This document shows, piece after piece, positions 6,325 through 48,602 of a stretch of 62,938 nt of DNA (position 1 is the first letter of the stretch; every line of letters begins with the position of its first letter). Origin of the DNA: a virus; the IMG/VR virus record IMGVR_UViG_3300009419_000018, positions 1 through 62,938 of that record, one strand, 5' to 3'. The notes under the pieces were generated by a model. That model worked only from the letters and a program-made list of their open reading frames with translations. It was not told where the DNA came from and made no database searches. A program made the translations under genes and the position numbers.

Positions 6325-6370
6325 TTTAGTCCTCGTGATTAGAAATGTTTAGTCCTCGTAATTAGAAATA
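6325..6370. repeat. 23-bp tandem duplication carrying a ribosome binding site
   Basis: Two adjacent 23-base copies (6325-6347 and 6348-6370) differ at 2 positions. The right copy encodes the last residues and stop of the small gene at 6349; the left copy supplies the GAGGACTAAA ribosome binding site of the MerR-like gene. It looks like a local slippage duplication that separated two genes while preserving the translation signal. Confidence 0.8.
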
Positions 6371-7206: not shown

Positions 7207-8124
7207 TTACCAATTCGGCATCTGTGAAGAATTTAGTAGTCCAAGTTCTATTTCGTCGTTGGTCATGTCGCCAATGTCTTTGGCGGTAGTACCTGAATAA
7301 TCCCACCACCATACACCTTTGCGGAAGTAAGGCAGTGATTTAAAGAACTTTTTAGAAGATTGTTTTCCAGCGTCGTCATTGTCCATTGCGATGATCACCT
7401 TGTCAGCAACTGAGGCTAGTAATGCGATTTGTTTGGTGCTAACAGCCGCTCCGAAAGTGGCTAATGCCTGTGGCTTGTCAAAGACACTGGCAAAGCGCAC
7501 AACATCCAGTGGGGATTCCACCAAGATTGCTGTGCCCCCCTTGAAGCGTTCAATCCCAAAGAGGCTCTCAGACTTCTTTACACCTACTGGGAAGTTGCGT
7601 ACCCAATCACGAGCCTTAGTCTGCCATCCTTGGAGATCACCGAACTGATTGACAATGGGAATAACCCAAGCGGCTCGTTCTGTATCCCAACGGATACCAT
7701 GCATTCGGGCTTGATCAGGGTCAATCGCTCGTTTCCTGAGTTCTGAATCCGGTGCGGAACCAAACTTTGAAAATGAAATCCAATCAACTTCGGGTTTCTT
7801 TTTAACTACTTCTACCTCAGAAGTAAGTCTTTCTAAGTTGCGATCAATCAAAAAGTGATGGACAGCCATAATTGCGTCTGGTTCGCCAGTTAATTCTGAG
7901 ACCAGCATGCTCAATGTCCCACGGGCACCGCACGAGAAACAAATCCATAAACCAGTCTCGGCGCTCATGCTCCACGATGGGGAACCATCTTCACGACCCG
8001 TCACGCGCTTATGGACTGGGCAACGCCCTGAGATTTCCCTACCTTCGGCACGGCGAATATCTACGCCGAGTGTCTTGAGAACATTCCCAAGATCAGTCAA
8101 ATGCGTCTCCGACACCGTAGCCAT
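7207..8124 (-). CDS. DnaG-type DNA primase (CHC2 zinc finger plus TOPRIM)
   Basis: 305 residues. The zinc-binding CHC2 domain is Cys35-x2-His38...Cys62-x2-Cys65 (RCPVHK, ICFSCGARG). The TOPRIM domain has ILVESPLD (the acidic motif) and AMDNDDAGK (the DxD-type motif). It is shorter than bacterial DnaG and lacks the C-terminal helicase-binding domain, as many phage primases do. It would lay down RNA primers at the fork. Start ATG 8124 has GGAGGTGA and overlaps the helicase gene by 32 bases, which couples the two replisome partners. Confidence 0.9.
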   Translation of the reverse strand: MATVSETHLTDLGNVLKTLGVDIRRAEGREISGRCPVHKRVTGREDGSPSWSMSAETGLWICFSCGARGTLSMLVSELTGEPDAIMAVHHFLIDRNLERLTSEVEVVKKKPEVDWISFSKFGSAPDSELRKRAIDPDQARMHGIRWDTERAAWVIPIVNQFGDLQGWQTKARDWVRNFPVGVKKSESLFGIERFKGGTAILVESPLDVVRFASVFDKPQALATFGAAVSTKQIALLASVADKVIIAMDNDDAGKQSSKKFFKSLPYFRKGVWWWDYSGTTAKDIGDMTNDEIELGLLNSSQMPNW

Positions 8125-9346
8125 CCGCAGTCACCTCCGAGAAGTCCATGTTTTCCCAGTCCCACTTAATGTGTACTTCACCTGTCGGTGCTGAACGAGC
8201 CGCGACTACTCGGATGATTGCTTGGTCGTCTAAGTCGGGGTTGCGCTCAACGCCGAGCACTAGGTCTGCGTCTTGCACGAACGAGGATGAGTAACCAATT
8301 GCGTCGGTAGTAATTGCTCGCGTCTTCTTGTTGCCAAGTTTCCAACCAAGAGCCTGCGTCGTTGCTACAACAGGAATGTCAAGTTTTTGAGACATACGCT
8401 TTAGACCGCGGGTGATGTTGGTGAGTGCCTGAGGGCTTCCCTTGGCTTCACCTTCCTCGTCATCCATAAGGTACACACCGTCAACGATTAGTAGATCGGG
8501 TGCGTACTCCTTGACCTTGCCTGTCAGGGCTGAGATGGTCGTAAGTGATGAGGTGTCCTCGCTGAAAATAAACGGTTGCATGTTCTTGCGTTGCATGAGG
8601 GCGCGACGAATGCGTTCCATTTCTTTGTTATCTAGTTCACCACGCAGAATCTTGTTGAACGGGGTCTTAGAGATGATGGCGTCGTAACGCGCTTCTTGTT
8701 CCTCAATGCTCATTTCAAAAGAAACGAACATAGGAATCTTTCCGTGGATGTGGCAGGAGTTTGCAATAATAAGAGCAAACAAAGACTTACCACGCTTAGG
8801 CTCACCTACGAACACAACAAACTGTTGCGGTCTGAGACCTGAGGTAATTCTGTCTAAGCCAAAGAACCCTGTTGGGATACCGCGTAGGGAGTTTGGTGTG
8901 CTACGCATTTCTTCGTAGCGCATAACGCGCGTTTCCCAGTTTTGAATGATGTCAATGTCCCGCATACGGGACACTTCAACTGCGGCTGTTTGGATACCGA
9001 CCGTCAGTGTGTCTAGGGCATCTTTGGTACGACCAACATTCAACAACGGCATTGTTGTTGAAATGACCTCAATCAAACGGTGCTGGGTATGTGCCTGAAA
9101 GATTTCCTCAATGAGTCGTGAGAATGTTTCAGCCTCGGCATCGTACAACTGGATGTCGGCGTACTGTGACTTGAATACACGCGCTGTCGGTACGGCATTA
9201 TGCTCGCGGTAAAAACCTGTAAGCCAGTGCCACACACCTTGCCATGTGTCTGAGAAGTGTTCTTCCTTAACCCCGGATTTTAACGGCGTCGCAATGTCAG
9301 CAGTTTGGATGATCTTTGAAACTAGGAGATGTTCGGGTGACGACAT
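8093..9346 (-). CDS. DnaB-like replicative helicase
   Basis: About 417 residues from ATG 9346; a GTG at 9355 in frame is an alternative start. An N-terminal helical domain is followed by the RecA-type ATPase: GIPTGFFGLDRI, Walker A GEPKRGKS (about 181-188), Walker B LLIVDGVYLMDD, and a later TTQALG / GVERNPD segment matching the DnaB-family H3/H4 motifs. It should form the hexameric 5'-3' fork helicase, loaded by the DnaC-like protein coded two genes upstream. The start sits 2 bases after the preceding stop. Confidence 0.9.
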   Translation of the reverse strand: MSSPEHLLVSKIIQTADIATPLKSGVKEEHFSDTWQGVWHWLTGFYREHNAVPTARVFKSQYADIQLYDAEAETFSRLIEEIFQAHTQHRLIEVISTTMPLLNVGRTKDALDTLTVGIQTAAVEVSRMRDIDIIQNWETRVMRYEEMRSTPNSLRGIPTGFFGLDRITSGLRPQQFVVFVGEPKRGKSLFALIIANSCHIHGKIPMFVSFEMSIEEQEARYDAIISKTPFNKILRGELDNKEMERIRRALMQRKNMQPFIFSEDTSSLTTISALTGKVKEYAPDLLIVDGVYLMDDEEGEAKGSPQALTNITRGLKRMSQKLDIPVVATTQALGWKLGNKKTRAITTDAIGYSSSFVQDADLVLGVERNPDLDDQAIIRVVAARSAPTGEVHIKWDWENMDFSEVTADGYGVGDAFD

Positions 9347-9348
9347 GA

Positions 9349-9783
9349 TTACCACGCTCTTTCGGAACCAAGCACTGTAGCGCGTATCCCAATGATTGCT
9401 TGCTGTTCTTGGGTGGCAACATAAATAACATGAATACTTCTGTTGAAGCGTAGGTCTTCTGCCAATGTTTCAACATCAGGGTAAGCCTCTACCGAAGTAG
9501 AAACTCCCTTGCGTATTAACCAGTGTTCAATTTCGGGCACTGCCTCAACTGGCATGAATGTATAAACCAATGTACCGATACCGCGTCGGTTGATTGAGTC
9601 ATTGAGTGACTTCAGCGGTAGTTCATTTGGTTTCATGGTGTTAACCAAAGTCGGCATGTCTTTGGCTTTTGATGCAAACCAATTGCGGACCGACTTTGTA
9701 CCTTTTGGATAACTTGCTAAGACTCCCTCAAACAAAACTGCTTGCTGTATCGGTGCGTATGGGGCTAGATCATTGCCCTGCAT
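9349..9783 (-). CDS. Unrecognised protein between helicase and loader genes
   Basis: 144 residues with mixed alpha/beta character. Hydrophobic strands TLVYTFMPV and HVIYVAT suggest a Rossmann-like or ferredoxin-like fold. No catalytic motif recognised. Its ATG overlaps the DnaC-like stop (last base of that gene is the first base of this one) and it ends 2 bases before the helicase start. Conserved placement between loader and helicase suggests a replisome accessory role, which is inference from context only. Confidence 0.75.
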   Translation of the reverse strand: MQGNDLAPYAPIQQAVLFEGVLASYPKGTKSVRNWFASKAKDMPTLVNTMKPNELPLKSLNDSINRRGIGTLVYTFMPVEAVPEIEHWLIRKGVSTSVEAYPDVETLAEDLRFNRSIHVIYVATQEQQAIIGIRATVLGSERAW

Positions 9784-10376
9784 CAGGACACCGTGCTGAT
9801 CGTCATGTCCTCAAGAACTGTCGCAACACGCTCTCCGTACCGCCGAATGAATTCAGTTGGTGACAGGTTTGTTGTGATAATTGTTTTACGAAGGTCTTCA
9901 TTGCGTCGGCGTAACAAACTACCGACCTCATGTTGTGAGAATTCAGTTGATCGTTCTTCCCCAACTGCGTCAAGTACAACGATGTCAAAAACACCCTTGA
10001 GGTACTTGACGATGTGTGGCATGGAGTACATCTCGGGAAGTTCGTTGTCATGATCAAACTGGTCTTTGAGCATGTCCACATAACGCTCGGCAGTAATAAA
10101 CCGACCTGACATGGGCTTAGTTCTGAGGATGTCTTTCAGGATGGCGACAGCAATGGGTGTCTTTCCTGAGCCACTTGGTCCGTGCAGAAACAAACCAGTG
10201 GACTCACCATTGATGAACTTGGCAATGGCGTGGTAAGTCTTGTCTGATACCAGCGACGAATCGTATTCAGCACCCTTCCATCGTGGTGGGAAATTTGCCC
10301 ACTCAAGGCGTTCCTCTAGCGGTCGGTTCTGCCACCATCGTGCAGATTTCCAGTCGGTCGGCGGTGCTGAGATCAT
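9783..10376 (-). CDS. DnaC/DnaI-like AAA+ helicase loader
   Basis: 197 residues. Walker A GPSGSGKT is at 66-73; Walker B is FDIVVLDAVGEE (about 130-141), followed by LLRRRNEDLRKTIITTNLSP, the sensor-1-type TTN typical of DnaC/IstB-like loaders, and RYGERVATVLEDM. The N-terminal basic, tryptophan-rich segment would contact the helicase or initiator. It lies immediately downstream of the replisome organiser with a 4-base overlap, the same order as initiator and loader in lambda (O-P) and P22 (18-12). It would load the DnaB-like helicase at the origin. Confidence 0.85.
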   Translation of the reverse strand: MISAPPTDWKSARWWQNRPLEERLEWANFPPRWKGAEYDSSLVSDKTYHAIAKFINGESTGLFLHGPSGSGKTPIAVAILKDILRTKPMSGRFITAERYVDMLKDQFDHDNELPEMYSMPHIVKYLKGVFDIVVLDAVGEERSTEFSQHEVGSLLRRRNEDLRKTIITTNLSPTEFIRRYGERVATVLEDMTISTVS

Positions 10377-11623
10377 GTTGTGGTTCTCCTTGTGAGTTGA
10401 TAATTAACTACGGCTTGCTTGAGTGATGGTGCTAACTCACGCAAGTTCTTACGGGCAAGAATATCTTCAGGGATGGCAATTCCTGCGTCTGTCAAGATAC
10501 TACGCACAGGAGCGAGATCGTTGTCAAGCATTGTCGTGCAATTTGTGATCAGGAACGATGCCGACTGGATCATGGTATCAAAAACTGAGATGTCCTCAAA
10601 GGTTACTTCAGCGATACCCACCAGCAATTCGGGGTACCTGTAGGCGACATCCATCCCGCGCCTCCAAATGACTCTCTTCATTTTTTCGTTCATGGCTTCA
10701 TCCCACGGGAGGTCAGCCCCGTGTTCAAAGTCGTCGGAGACCCAACCGAGCATTGGGGACTTCTGTGAGACCCCAGCCATTTTGGACATCATGGATTCTT
10801 GGACCTCGCGGGAACAGAAAGTTCTCCATGGGGTGGGGGACTCCACATTCCGAGACAGGGTGAAGAACTCATCGGTCATCTTCTGCAATTCTTGGGGCTT
10901 GACCCCAGCCTTAATCAGACGCTTGACCTGTGAGCGAAACGCTGGTGTGTCAGCGACTGTCGTCGGGGTTCCCCCAACCTTTCTAGCGGTTAGGTTGAAA
11001 TGGTTTAAAACTTCTGTTACTTCATTTGCATTCTTCTTAAGCAGGATGTTTTCATCCCACGGTCGGTCGTCATCAGGGTCAGCGCCAAAGGTAGGCATGG
11101 ATTCTCCTTGTTGTTTTTTCGGGCGAAGCCCACATAGGAAAATGTCGTTAGACATTTTCCTATGTACTATTTCTAGAGTACTATCTATAGAGACGCGTTC
11201 CCCCTGGTCAGAGCCTCGGGGGGGTGTCATGGGTGACCCCCCTGGTAGGTCATGGGTGACCCCCCCTTTGGGGGTAGGTAGGTCACTGGTGACCCCACCT
11301 TTACGCAGTGCTAGGTCACTGGTGAACCCCCCTTTGGGTCTGCGGTAATTAACGACAATGCTCTTCCCGCGGTTGGCTGAGAGCACAGTGGATGTCACAA
11401 CTTTGTGCAATTCTAACCATTTAATTGAACGCTTAACTGTAGACGGTGACACCCCTGAGAGGGTGGAAATGTCGTCAGTAGTCATGATCGGTGCACCCTC
11501 AAATGGGGTCAACCTTATGATGCACATGAGGATGTGCGAGTGTGTTGGGGTGCCCTTTTTGGTGATCAAGTCAATCGCCCATATTGGGACCGCCGCAAAT
11601 GGTCCGTTGAATTTTCTAGACAT
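10373..11623 (-). CDS. Replisome organiser / origin-binding protein with N-terminal winged HTH
   Basis: 416 residues from ATG 11623 (AAGGAG 6 bases upstream). The N-terminal 90 residues form a winged HTH (MTTDDISTLSGVSPSTVKRS, IKWLELHKVV), as in lambda O- and DnaD-type initiators. An 11-residue repeat (KGGxTxDL, three copies, about 95-130) follows, then a variable linker and a helical C-terminal domain. The DNA for the repeat region holds iteron-like elements and a perfect hairpin (listed separately), so the gene may contain the origin, as lambda O does. A strong internal Shine-Dalgarno and ATG at 11098 could also make a 241-residue C-terminal form. First gene of the leftward early operon. 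Confidence 0.8.
   Translation of the reverse strand: MSRKFNGPFAAVPIWAIDLITKKGTPTHSHILMCIIRLTPFEGAPIMTTDDISTLSGVSPSTVKRSIKWLELHKVVTSTVLSANRGKSIVVNYRRPKGGFTSDLALRKGGVTSDLPTPKGGVTHDLPGGSPMTPPRGSDQGERVSIDSTLEIVHRKMSNDIFLCGLRPKKQQGESMPTFGADPDDDRPWDENILLKKNANEVTEVLNHFNLTARKVGGTPTTVADTPAFRSQVKRLIKAGVKPQELQKMTDEFFTLSRNVESPTPWRTFCSREVQESMMSKMAGVSQKSPMLGWVSDDFEHGADLPWDEAMNEKMKRVIWRRGMDVAYRYPELLVGIAEVTFEDISVFDTMIQSASFLITNCTTMLDNDLAPVRSILTDAGIAIPEDILARKNLRELAPSLKQAVVNYQLTRRTTT
11096..11109 (-). promoter_or_regulatory. Internal ribosome binding site and ATG inside the replisome organiser gene
   Basis: AAGGAG (11109-11104) lies 5 bases before an in-frame ATG (11098-11096). It is as good as any start signal in this operon. 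Initiation here would give a protein beginning MPTFGADPDDDRPW and lacking the DNA-binding half. It may be a true second product or a relic of two genes that became fused. Confidence 0.5.
11132..11165. repeat. Perfect 15-bp inverted repeat inside the replisome organiser gene
   Basis: Arms ACATAGGAAAATGTC (11132-11146) and its exact complement (11151-11165) are separated by GTTA. The arms are coding (HRKMSNDIFLCG) yet perfectly palindromic. An A/T-rich stretch with a direct repeat GTACTAT (11164-11170, 11178-11184) follows. No U-run follows on either strand, so it is not a simple terminator. It fits an origin hairpin, a protein-binding site, or an mRNA hairpin upstream of the internal ribosome binding site at 11104-11109. 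Confidence 0.8.
11223..11338. repeat. Four iteron-like repeats with internal dyad
   Basis: Repeats begin at 11223, 11246, 11279 and 11312. Their 15-base cores are GGTGTCATGGGTGAC, TAGGTCATGGGTGAC, TAGGTCACTGGTGAC and TAGGTCACTGGTGAA, with C/T-rich downstream flanks. The third core gives the perfect palindrome GGTCACTGGTGACC. The last three are spaced 33 bp (11 codons) and encode a peptide repeat. The first is offset 23 bp, so it is read in another frame, which points to selection on DNA rather than on peptide. Confidence 0.7.
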
Positions 11624-11832: not shown

Positions 11833-12276
11833 ATGGCGACAGCCCCAACCCTTACCAAATCCCTCAAAACCCTGCTATCTGACACCGTCACTTTCTACTT
11901 CATGGCGCACGGATTTCACTGGAATGTTGAGGGTTCTGACTTCAGCCAGTACCACGGTCTCTTCGCAGAAATCTATGAAGATGTTTACACGATGATTGAC
12001 CCAGTGGCTGAGAACATCCGCAAGTTGGATGATTACGCACCGTTTAATCTTCAGAAGTTTATTGATCTTCGGACACTTGAATTCAAAGAAGTAAGTCCGA
12101 ATCCTAAGGCAATGTCAACGGCATTGTTGAAGGCTAACGAGGCACTGATCACTCAGTTAAATGCCTCATTCAAAGAAGCAACCAAAGCCGACCAGCAGGG
12201 GATTGCAAACTTCTTGTCCGAGAGGGTTGACAGTCAAATGAAATGGTCATGGCAACTACGAGCATCGGTTAAGTGA
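11833..12276 (+). CDS. dps: Dps-like DNA-protection mini-ferritin
   Basis: 147 residues with the Dps signature: HWNVEG at 29-34, then FSQYHGLFAEIYEDVYTMID and VAENIR. The inter-subunit ferroxidase ligands keep the E. coli spacing exactly (His29, His41, Asp56, Glu60 against His51, His63, Asp78, Glu82). It should form a dodecamer that oxidises and stores iron and may bind DNA. The N-terminal extension is short with only two lysines, so DNA binding, if any, may rest on the basic partner peptides coded next. Start ATG 11833 has AAGGAG. It is the first gene of the only rightward multigene unit. Confidence 0.9.
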   Translation: MATAPTLTKSLKTLLSDTVTFYFMAHGFHWNVEGSDFSQYHGLFAEIYEDVYTMIDPVAENIRKLDDYAPFNLQKFIDLRTLEFKEVSPNPKAMSTALLKANEALITQLNASFKEATKADQQGIANFLSERVDSQMKWSWQLRASVK

Positions 12277-46667: not shown

Positions 46668-48602
46668 TTATGTTTTGATGATGTAGTTAAGAACTATGTA
46701 TGGTTGGAGGTTATTGTGTGCGCTACCGCTACCAGCGTTTTGGTTGGTGGCTGTCTGTGCTTGGTTGGTGGCTGTCTGTGCATTGTTGGTTGCTGTCTGT
46801 GCATTGTTAGTAGCAGTTTGACCAGCAGTACCGCTATTCCAAGTGATAGCAAGATAAGCGTTACCAACCCACGAGTTAAAACCAGTGTTATATGCACTGT
46901 CACGGTATAGGAATTCGCCAGTACCAACAGAGCCACCGTGGTTGTGAGCGTTCTGAGTATGGTTGTGCGAGTTCTGTGTGTGGTTGTGAGAATCTTGTGT
47001 GTGGTTGTGACTATTTTGTATGTGGGTGTGAATAGGCATTTCGGCACTAGTCAAAGTATGAGTCTTAGCACCACCAAGTTCACCCATAGTGTCAAACGAA
47101 GCATCAGCAGAATCACGACCAACAGGAACTTTACCTTTTAAGTTAGGCAAAGAAAATGTTGTAGAACCATCACCAGTACCATAAGTAGTGCCAATGACAG
47201 CAAACAAGGCCGCATAAGTAGTACGACTGACAGCAGTACCATCGCACAACAACCACGATGTAGGGGCAGTAGTAGTCGCCCACATGTTGATTGAACCAGT
47301 AGGAACAAGAAAAGCCTGTAATGCCGTGGATAAATCGCCTAAAACAATAGTGTTATCTGTGATCATTGTAGAGGTAACAGTGCCTGTATCCCCAGTAGTA
47401 ATAACAGTTCCATTAACATTAGGAAGTACTATTTGCCGAGAAACAGTTAAAGTATCGGTTGTTACAAACATTCCATAATTAGATGTGCCACCTGCACGAC
47501 CCCTAAGAACAATACGATCTTGGCTTGCCGCACTTTGGACTGTGGTGTCACCAATAATTGATACACCACCGCCAAATGATCCTGATCCCCAGCAATCTAA
47601 ATCTGTAACTGGTACTTTACCAATACCAACTCTACCTACTGAGTCAATAATAAAAGGTGTTGAGTCAGGGTTTGTTGCATCTTCTACTTTTAATGCATTT
47701 CCACTACCAGTTTGAGTAATACGAACCAAATCTCCACTGGTACTACCGCTAAATACACCGCCAGCAAAAGCAGGTGATGCAGAGGTTGCAACATCTTGAC
47801 CGATGGAAATTGTATGAGCAATACCCTCTCCTACTGATGCACCTGTAGTTGATACCCCCGTACCAGCAGTAATAGTTTCTACATAGTTACCCGTAGTGTC
47901 AGTACCAAGATCAATAGCATCCGCTACCCATAGTGATCCGTTGTACTTTAGGAACTCTCCTGAAGCAGGTGAGGGCAAACTTACATTATGAAGTTCATCT
48001 AACTCATAACCGTTTTGGGTAGCAACATAAATAATGCCGTTATTAGTGGCACGAACTACTACACCAATGAATACCAAGTGGTCTGGTGCTGTGGATTTAG
48101 TTGTTGTAAACGCTCCGTCGTCCCCAAGCCATAGAATGTCACCAGCGGTATAACCAGTTGATAGGTCAATACCATCTACATATCCACGAGTAACAACGGG
48201 GCCATTTTGGCTTGCCGCAATATTTGCACCAACAACACCAACAGTTTTAGCAGAAGTGGTATCGCTAGTCTTATCCGCTCTTTTTACTGTTGCATGATCA
48301 CCAGTCGCGCCGAACAAATAAACACAAGTTCCTGTTGTAATGGTTGTTGTTTCAGCATTACGGACATAAGACACGACTGGCGGATAACTGTTAACCCAAG
48401 ATGTGCCGTTGTATGAAAGACCTTGAAACTCTTCTGGTGCTGTAATGACAACATCTGAAAGGTCGTCAAGGGCTAAAGAACCTGCACCAGGGGTTGTGGG
48501 AGTAAATTTAGTACCGTTATATGACAGTACCTGGGCACTTGTAGCCCCAGCAGTGTCAATTTCAATCCCTTTAACAAAGAGGGATTTTAGGAAGTTAGCC
48601 AT
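46668..48602 (-). CDS. Long tail fibre with collar domain and His-rich repeats
   Basis: 644 residues. The N-terminus (MANFLKSLFVKGIEID) and a long beta stalk lead to a collar domain (about 440-530: GSINMWATTTAPTSWLLCDG, GTGDGSTTFSLPNLKGKVPVG). The tip has four NHTQ-type repeats (NSHNHTQD) and four QTATNNA-type repeats, then LQPYIVLNYIIKT, the usual collar C-terminus. The HxH clusters could bind metal along the fibre axis, as in T4 gp12. A host-recognition fibre. Confidence 0.85.
   Translation of the reverse strand: MANFLKSLFVKGIEIDTAGATSAQVLSYNGTKFTPTTPGAGSLALDDLSDVVITAPEEFQGLSYNGTSWVNSYPPVVSYVRNAETTTITTGTCVYLFGATGDHATVKRADKTSDTTSAKTVGVVGANIAASQNGPVVTRGYVDGIDLSTGYTAGDILWLGDDGAFTTTKSTAPDHLVFIGVVVRATNNGIIYVATQNGYELDELHNVSLPSPASGEFLKYNGSLWVADAIDLGTDTTGNYVETITAGTGVSTTGASVGEGIAHTISIGQDVATSASPAFAGGVFSGSTSGDLVRITQTGSGNALKVEDATNPDSTPFIIDSVGRVGIGKVPVTDLDCWGSGSFGGGVSIIGDTTVQSAASQDRIVLRGRAGGTSNYGMFVTTDTLTVSRQIVLPNVNGTVITTGDTGTVTSTMITDNTIVLGDLSTALQAFLVPTGSINMWATTTAPTSWLLCDGTAVSRTTYAALFAVIGTTYGTGDGSTTFSLPNLKGKVPVGRDSADASFDTMGELGGAKTHTLTSAEMPIHTHIQNSHNHTQDSHNHTQNSHNHTQNAHNHGGSVGTGEFLYRDSAYNTGFNSWVGNAYLAITWNSGTAGQTATNNAQTATNNAQTATNQAQTATNQNAGSGSAHNNLQPYIVLNYIIKT
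46738..46820. repeat. Tandem repeats encoding QTATNNA units
   Basis: About four 21-base units with small variations within the long fibre gene, encoding QTATN(N/Q)A. Probably expand and contract by slippage and vary the fibre tip. Confidence 0.7.
46941..47030. repeat. Tandem 21-bp repeats encoding His-rich NSHNHTQ units
   Basis: Four to five units of 21 bases encode (N/D)SHNHTQ. They give an array of His-x-His motifs in the collar tip. Repeat number is a candidate for phase or length variation. Confidence 0.75.

Follow-up and report, generated by a model that had tools for sequence, protein, structure and literature searches.

A probable lambda-like replication origin inside the initiator gene of a family of uncultured phages

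Phage lambda carries its replication origin within gene O (PMC7466680, PMC6022878), and oriL of the Bacillus phage SPP1 lies within gene 38 (gp38-gp39-gp40; PMC6316719). In-gene iteron origins are already established, and the array that we describe here is of this lambda/SPP1 type. It lies in the window, by which we mean the whole stretch of 62,938 nucleotides that was analysed (IMG/VR virus record IMGVR_UViG_3300009419_000018, positions 1 to 62,938). We put at about 0.9 the probability that the block containing the array is the replication origin of this phage, lambda-like in build and carried inside the initiator gene (Table 1).

Lambda resembles the window in having its origin in a gene, with four dyad iterons spaced 20-24 bp apart in several frames, an AT-rich stretch and then a hairpin palindrome with a 4-nt loop 3' of the iterons, and the helicase loader as the next gene. 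In lambda O (L030), the iterons occupy 735-819 and the palindrome arms follow at 863-874 and 879-890. The preliminary description had likened the array to the iterons of lambda, and the analogy extends further: iterons, AT-rich stretch and hairpin palindrome stand in the order of lambda O and at similar distances, and relatives of the window initiator share O-like PHROGs with lambda. The iteron sequences, however, are unrelated. Unlike lambda, the window phage has its own DnaB and primase, its loader is DnaC/IstB-like rather than lambda P, its initiator has a C-terminal domain without a family match and an internal Shine-Dalgarno sequence and start, and in many relatives the gene is split. We detected no sequence relation to SPP1, which also possesses a second origin, oriR; the window phage yielded no second array. 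In mid-gene, the initiator of Streptococcus thermophilus phage 5093 (YP_002925084) has a pair of GGGACATTTGTCC palindromic repeats at a distance of 24 bp; as in the window, a purine/AT-rich stretch and the gene for a DnaC-like loader come next, but the half-site differs and homology was seen for the loader only. No array of this kind was seen ahead of the loaders in the Streptomyces phages LuckySocke and BRock or in the Rhodococcus phage Finch.

Table 1. Positions in the window of the candidate origin block and of the replication genes around it.
Feature	Position	Strand	Frame	Remarks
DNA primase (zinc ribbon and Toprim)	7207..8124	-		phrog_47, E=1e-38; PF13155
DnaB-like replicative helicase	8093..9355	-		phrog_19, E=2.5e-55; PF03796
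144-aa gene, function unknown	9349-9783			between loader and helicase
DnaC-like helicase loader	9783..10376	-		phrog_50, E=2e-27; PF01695; start codon overlaps initiator stop
Initiator (replisome organiser) gene	10373..11623	-		416 aa; AAGGAG ribosome site before ATG (11621-11623)
C-terminal helical domain	10376..11098	-		predicted separate product from internal ATG (M176); separate overlapping gene in ~60 relatives
Internal Shine-Dalgarno AAGGAG	11104..11109	-		5 nt ahead of internal ATG (11098)
GC mini-hairpin	11121..11131	-		GGGC-TTC-GCCC; GGGCGAAGCCC on + strand; just ahead of internal start
34-bp perfect inverted repeat	11132..11165	.		arms 15 bp, loop 4 nt; covaries in relatives
AT-rich stretch	11166..11196	-		3' of iterons; near-invariant in close relatives; presumed unwinding element
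Iteron 4	11224..11239	-	0	GGGTCACCCATGACAC; covaries with iteron 3 among relatives despite the other frame
Iteron 3	11247..11262	-	1	GGGTCACCCATGACCT
Iteron 2	11280..11295	-	1	GGGTCACCAGTGACCT
Iteron 1 (gene order)	11313..11328	-	1	GGTTCACCAGTGACCT
N-terminal winged helix-turn-helix domain, residues 14-95	11339..11584	-		presumed iteron binder

Four hyphenated palindromes of the class GGGTCA-N4-TGACCC lie at 11224-11328, some 300-400 nt into the initiator gene. Each unit is a dyad whose half-site is GGGTCA, or differs from it by one or two bases, around a centre of 4 nt. The start positions of the repeats (11220, 11243, 11276 and 11309) are 23, 33 and 33 bp apart, and the 33-bp array was called by TRF as well. 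The claims that there are four dyad repeats inside the coding sequence and that one of them is read in a different frame were both borne out. One unit had also been described as a perfect palindrome; instead, GGTCACTGGTGACC consists of perfect 6-bp arms flanking a 2-nt TG centre. When the whole window was searched for GGTCACCNNTGACC, exactly or with one mismatch, no match was found outside the array, and the intergenic region upstream of the initiator gene contains no iteron sites. The part of the protein that the iteron block encodes is a linker, predicted to be disordered, between the winged-helix DNA-binding domain and the helical C-terminal domain.

The AT-rich stretch in the window is modest: AT content is 66% over 11132-11196 as against 49% for the gene, and the most AT-rich 60-mer of the gene lies outside the stretch, at 11054. 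Across 90 arrays, the most AT-rich 45-mer beyond the last iteron has a mean AT content of 74%, as against 54% in the gene, so that an AT-rich candidate unwinding region adjoins the iterons in the family, more weakly in the window. The 34-bp palindrome exceeds what codon resampling gives (p=4e-4). In six distinct close sequences 15 of its 15 pairs are kept, two of them by two-sided changes, and when the columns were slid by 1-3 positions there were no two-sided changes and pairing fell to about 50%. In one of these pairs, the change in the left arm is non-synonymous, whereas that in the right arm leaves the protein unchanged. In place of the GC mini-hairpin, other clades carry GGCC-GAT-GGCC or GCCG-CAAG-CGGC, the same shape with a different sequence. 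The internal Shine-Dalgarno sequence is kept in the L064-L067 clade although its spacing and neighbours have changed, and it is GGAGG in L090, L102, L105, L109 and L110; L070 and L081 have no clear one. A promoter scan gave nothing above chance.

To measure selection on DNA beyond the protein, we fixed the peptide of the window and redrew its codons from the usage of the phage 20,000 times. None of the 20,000 redraws reached the observed identity among the repeats, and none reached the match of the out-of-frame unit, which excludes chance for the array; the dyads had p=5e-5 under the same resampling. Synonymous changes between the window and L003 numbered 8 of 65 in the origin block and 99 of 267 elsewhere in the gene (Fisher p=5e-5), about one-third of the rate in the remaining gene. 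At about 52% amino-acid identity, the comparison with L064 gave 8 of 42 and 95 of 159 (p=2e-6). Suppression in the linker was also seen between L087 and L095 (p=1e-6) and between L102 and L105 (p=3e-7), and in all nine pairs compared, with p from 0.012 to 1.4e-8. Across 12 relatives, the iteron match score at fixed positions, which is the decisive test, was 494, whereas codon resampling gave a mean of 382.5 (sd 7.5; z of about 15); counting sites with at most two mismatches under codon resampling is a weak test in several clades, with p of 0.002-0.22. The coding sequence of the initiator thus holds several near-identical repeats whose DNA is conserved beyond what the protein needs, as the preliminary description had proposed. 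It had suggested a check for synonymous codons that vary freely among homologues, and the outcome was the opposite, with synonymous change suppressed in the block.

Initiator homologues at 76-100% identity were found on eleven IMG/VR contigs. In the window, L001 and L002, CCCATGA occurs in units 3 and 4 alike, and CCAGTGA takes its place in both units in L003-L011; since gene conversion could produce such a joint change, we did not use it alone as proof of selection. One entire unit is missing in L010. Searching with the DnaB protein extended the family to further loci that share the operon, whose initiators are as little as about 26% identical (26-100% overall). All 28 aligned fused homologues retain three or four sites, spaced by 22-23, 33-34 and 45. 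Of the 97 sites in total, frame 1 accounts for 55 and frame 0 for 42, and the third frame, with its TGA codon, is never used. Identical DNA, TAGGGTCACCCATGACCCTA, is translated as GSPMT at one place and as VTHDP at another. Two further scans brought the set to 95 distinct initiators, and 90 of these have at least three palindromic repeats at the same place after the helix-turn-helix, with more than one frame in use in every one of the 90 arrays. This search takes the best motif per locus and was hence run on controls: at least three sites were found in 39 of 40 sampled linkers, but in none of 120 stretches from downstream and in 3 of 40 linkers after codon resampling. In four large relatives (G001, G004, G006 and G008; 92-95 kb), the array, defined by the half-site of the clade with at most one mismatch, is present solely in the initiator gene; a few isolated single matches of GTGTCA type occur elsewhere in large relatives. 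Four distant initiators (L291, L294, L296 and L298) have no recognisable iterons at the linker position; they lie upstream of DnaB proteins of 53-57% identity, and three of them are fused. A tblastn search with the initiator in 50,697 phage records gave no match, and a scan of genome contigs with alignment A2 found no relative.

Half-sites across the relatives comprise GGGTCA, GTGTCA, GTGTCT, GTGACT, GTATCT, GGTAGT and GGTAGC. The recognition helix SxxTxKRS goes with GGGTCA; [DSN]R[RS]T[VI][IM]R[AS] with GTGTCA, including the variants GTGTCT or GTGACA; NKRTVIRA with GTGACT; SRITIIRA with GTATCT; HRTTVIKS with GGTAGT; and HRTT[VI]IRS with GGTAGC. We hypothesize from these pairings, which represent few independent events, that the half-site follows a few residues of the recognition helix.

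An AlphaFold2 model of the initiator from a 28-sequence alignment (pLDDT 67) shows a winged helix at residues 14-95, a linker at 96-197 and a helical C-terminal domain. Secondary-structure elements of the N-terminal domain come in the order H-H-H-H-E-E, and its match to PF13412 is below the gathering score. The linker, which is the part that codes for the origin, has pLDDT below 50. This model supersedes an earlier one from eight near-identical sequences that was unusable (pLDDT 36). Foldseek against the PDB returned generic winged-helix matches only, none at E<=0.001; against viral models it returned one full-length relative and many helix-turn-helix initiators, one of them annotated as lambda GpO N-terminal. 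The window protein itself matches no PHROG, so that its membership of an initiator family is seen by profile only through its relatives: 17 of the 28 homologues match phrog_678 and 20 match phrog_270, to which split-gene relatives match with E down to 6e-17, and phrog_678, phrog_391 and phrog_345 (replication initiation, O-like) are matched by relatives and lambda O alike. Among Pfam models, that of lambda O was unmatched and only generic helix-turn-helix models were hit. The C-terminal domain was not found to be like that of lambda O, and searches with C-domain reading frames from split-gene relatives gave no PHROG match.

In about 60 distinct relatives (L113-L127 and L153-L223), the frame stops just past the AT-rich block and a second reading frame overlaps it, with the iterons in the first (for example, L118:4042-4521 and L118:4436-4918). 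The first matches the N-domain profile and the second the C-domain profile, with E from 3e-9 to 1e-3. On a tree of the short N-domains, built on about 105 columns, fused and split genes are nearly fully separated, with 3 label changes against a shuffled mean of 22; because these changes are few, the joint has been fused or broken rarely. Judging from its start signals, the C-terminal domain could also be made alone in the window, from M176. The plasmid pIGRK provides a parallel, as an internal start gives two products, RepR and RepR', from one frame (PMC6854812); the short form in the window phage is a prediction and, in contrast to that plasmid system, would be without the DNA-binding domain. 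We consider it an even bet that the initiator is a two-part protein whose joint is the origin. The clade of the window would have fused the parts and kept the Shine-Dalgarno sequence and start at the joint, so that one gene would yield a fused protein and a free C-domain, which may tune initiation, and the relatives would form a series in half-site and recognition helix.

The genes around the initiator form a replication operon. The adjoining gene had been called a DnaC-like loader and is confirmed as such by its family matches, and a helicase gene lies close by. The 144-aa gene occurs in all relatives that have the operon, at 37-98% identity, with no family match. The nearest cultured DnaB proteins are those of Streptomyces phages, at about 33% identity. 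GC skew, which the preliminary description had proposed as a check, showed no turn at the array and no usable signal in the window and four large relatives. On the other side of the initiator, a divergent dps/ferritin-like gene (11833-12276; phrog_3636) adjoins it in most relatives. Other repeats in the window include a 23-bp unit, TTTAGTCCTCGTAATTAGAAATG, in near-perfect intergenic tandem duplication at 6325-6369, and neighbouring arrays of 21-bp repeats at 46743-46808 and 46938-47031, which are multiples of three and possibly a coding repeat. The window aligns with G001 partially and in inverted orientation, at 97% over the first 20 kb and about 79-91% beyond 48 kb. In G001, G004 and G006 (92-94 kb), the opening 126-127 bp are found again close to the far contig end (L133, L138 and L143; L137, L142 and L147), representing either terminal repeats or the overlapping assembly ends of a circular map.

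That the array is an origin within the initiator gene, as first proposed, is supported by the conservation of its DNA, its position in 90 of 95 initiators and the operon. By analogy with lambda and SPP1, we infer that one dimer would sit on each of the four dyad iterons, bound through the winged-helix domain, and that the resulting nucleoprotein complex would open the adjoining AT-rich stretch. Loading of the phage DnaB helicase onto the opened strand would then fall to the C-terminal domain and the DnaC-like loader, and priming to the phage primase. The hairpin palindrome past the AT-rich stretch would belong to the same origin block. Two features allow this block to be coding: its product is a disordered linker, and the TGA of the dyad limits the units to two stop-free frames.

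Selection for an 11-residue peptide repeat, KGGVTxDL, with the likeness of the DNA as a by-product, would account for the three in-frame units at 33 bp, which retain KGG[VF]T[SH]DL. It is highly improbable: the frame of the fourth unit differs, units 3 and 4 alternate jointly between CCCATGA and CCAGTGA across frames, relatives translate the same DNA into unlike peptides and the repeat-coding linker is predicted to be disordered. Codon resampling excludes the peptide explanation, and the synonymous sites refute it as the sole cause. Autoregulation is frequent in helix-turn-helix proteins, an intragenic roadblock is possible and plasmid Rep proteins such as pIGRK RepR are capable of both roles (PMC6854812), so the dyads might instead be operators through which the protein regulates its own operon only, with the origin elsewhere. 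The sites, however, lie deep inside the gene with none in the upstream intergenic region, an AT-rich stretch and a palindrome adjoin them, and their position is kept in the family; we consider it unlikely that the array is an operator only, and autoregulation may be a second role.

Centromeres too can consist of iteron-like arrays, and the block might in principle be a partition, packaging or recombination site of a different protein that lies in the initiator gene by chance. We give this almost no credence, as the half-site tracks the recognition helix of the product of the same gene and the neighbours are replication genes. A further alternative concerns the hairpins only and leaves the iterons untouched: the palindrome and the GC hairpin could be RNA elements, either a terminator or a control of translation from the internal start, rather than parts of the origin. 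Both stand directly ahead of the internal Shine-Dalgarno sequence and ATG, on the + strand the palindrome has a terminator-like score and covariation is equally compatible with RNA or DNA hairpins. No + strand gene, however, is transcribed toward the palindrome, and we rejected a rho-independent terminator because of the weak T tail, which is not conserved among relatives. An RNA role for the hairpins, perhaps in translation from the internal start, is possible but less likely, and we favour their assignment to the origin block.

We found no publication on this origin family in the open-access literature, the coverage of which is incomplete. New here are the phage family, the breadth of the array and its two-frame constraint, the covarying palindrome, the fused or split initiator with an internal start and the half-site series. 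The block supplies a probable origin and an initiator for a family of uncultured phages of about 90 kb, a family with only about 33% identity to the nearest helicases from cultured phages. The wide range of divergence shows how an origin is carried in coding sequence, with a disordered linker, two stop-free frames and stepwise spacing. About ninety distinct relatives, with the same DNA repeats in different frames, form a natural series on the joint change of an origin and its presumed binding protein. The matched changes in half-site and recognition helix make initiator-origin specificity directly testable by swaps, and with it the question of why phages keep the origin within the initiator gene.
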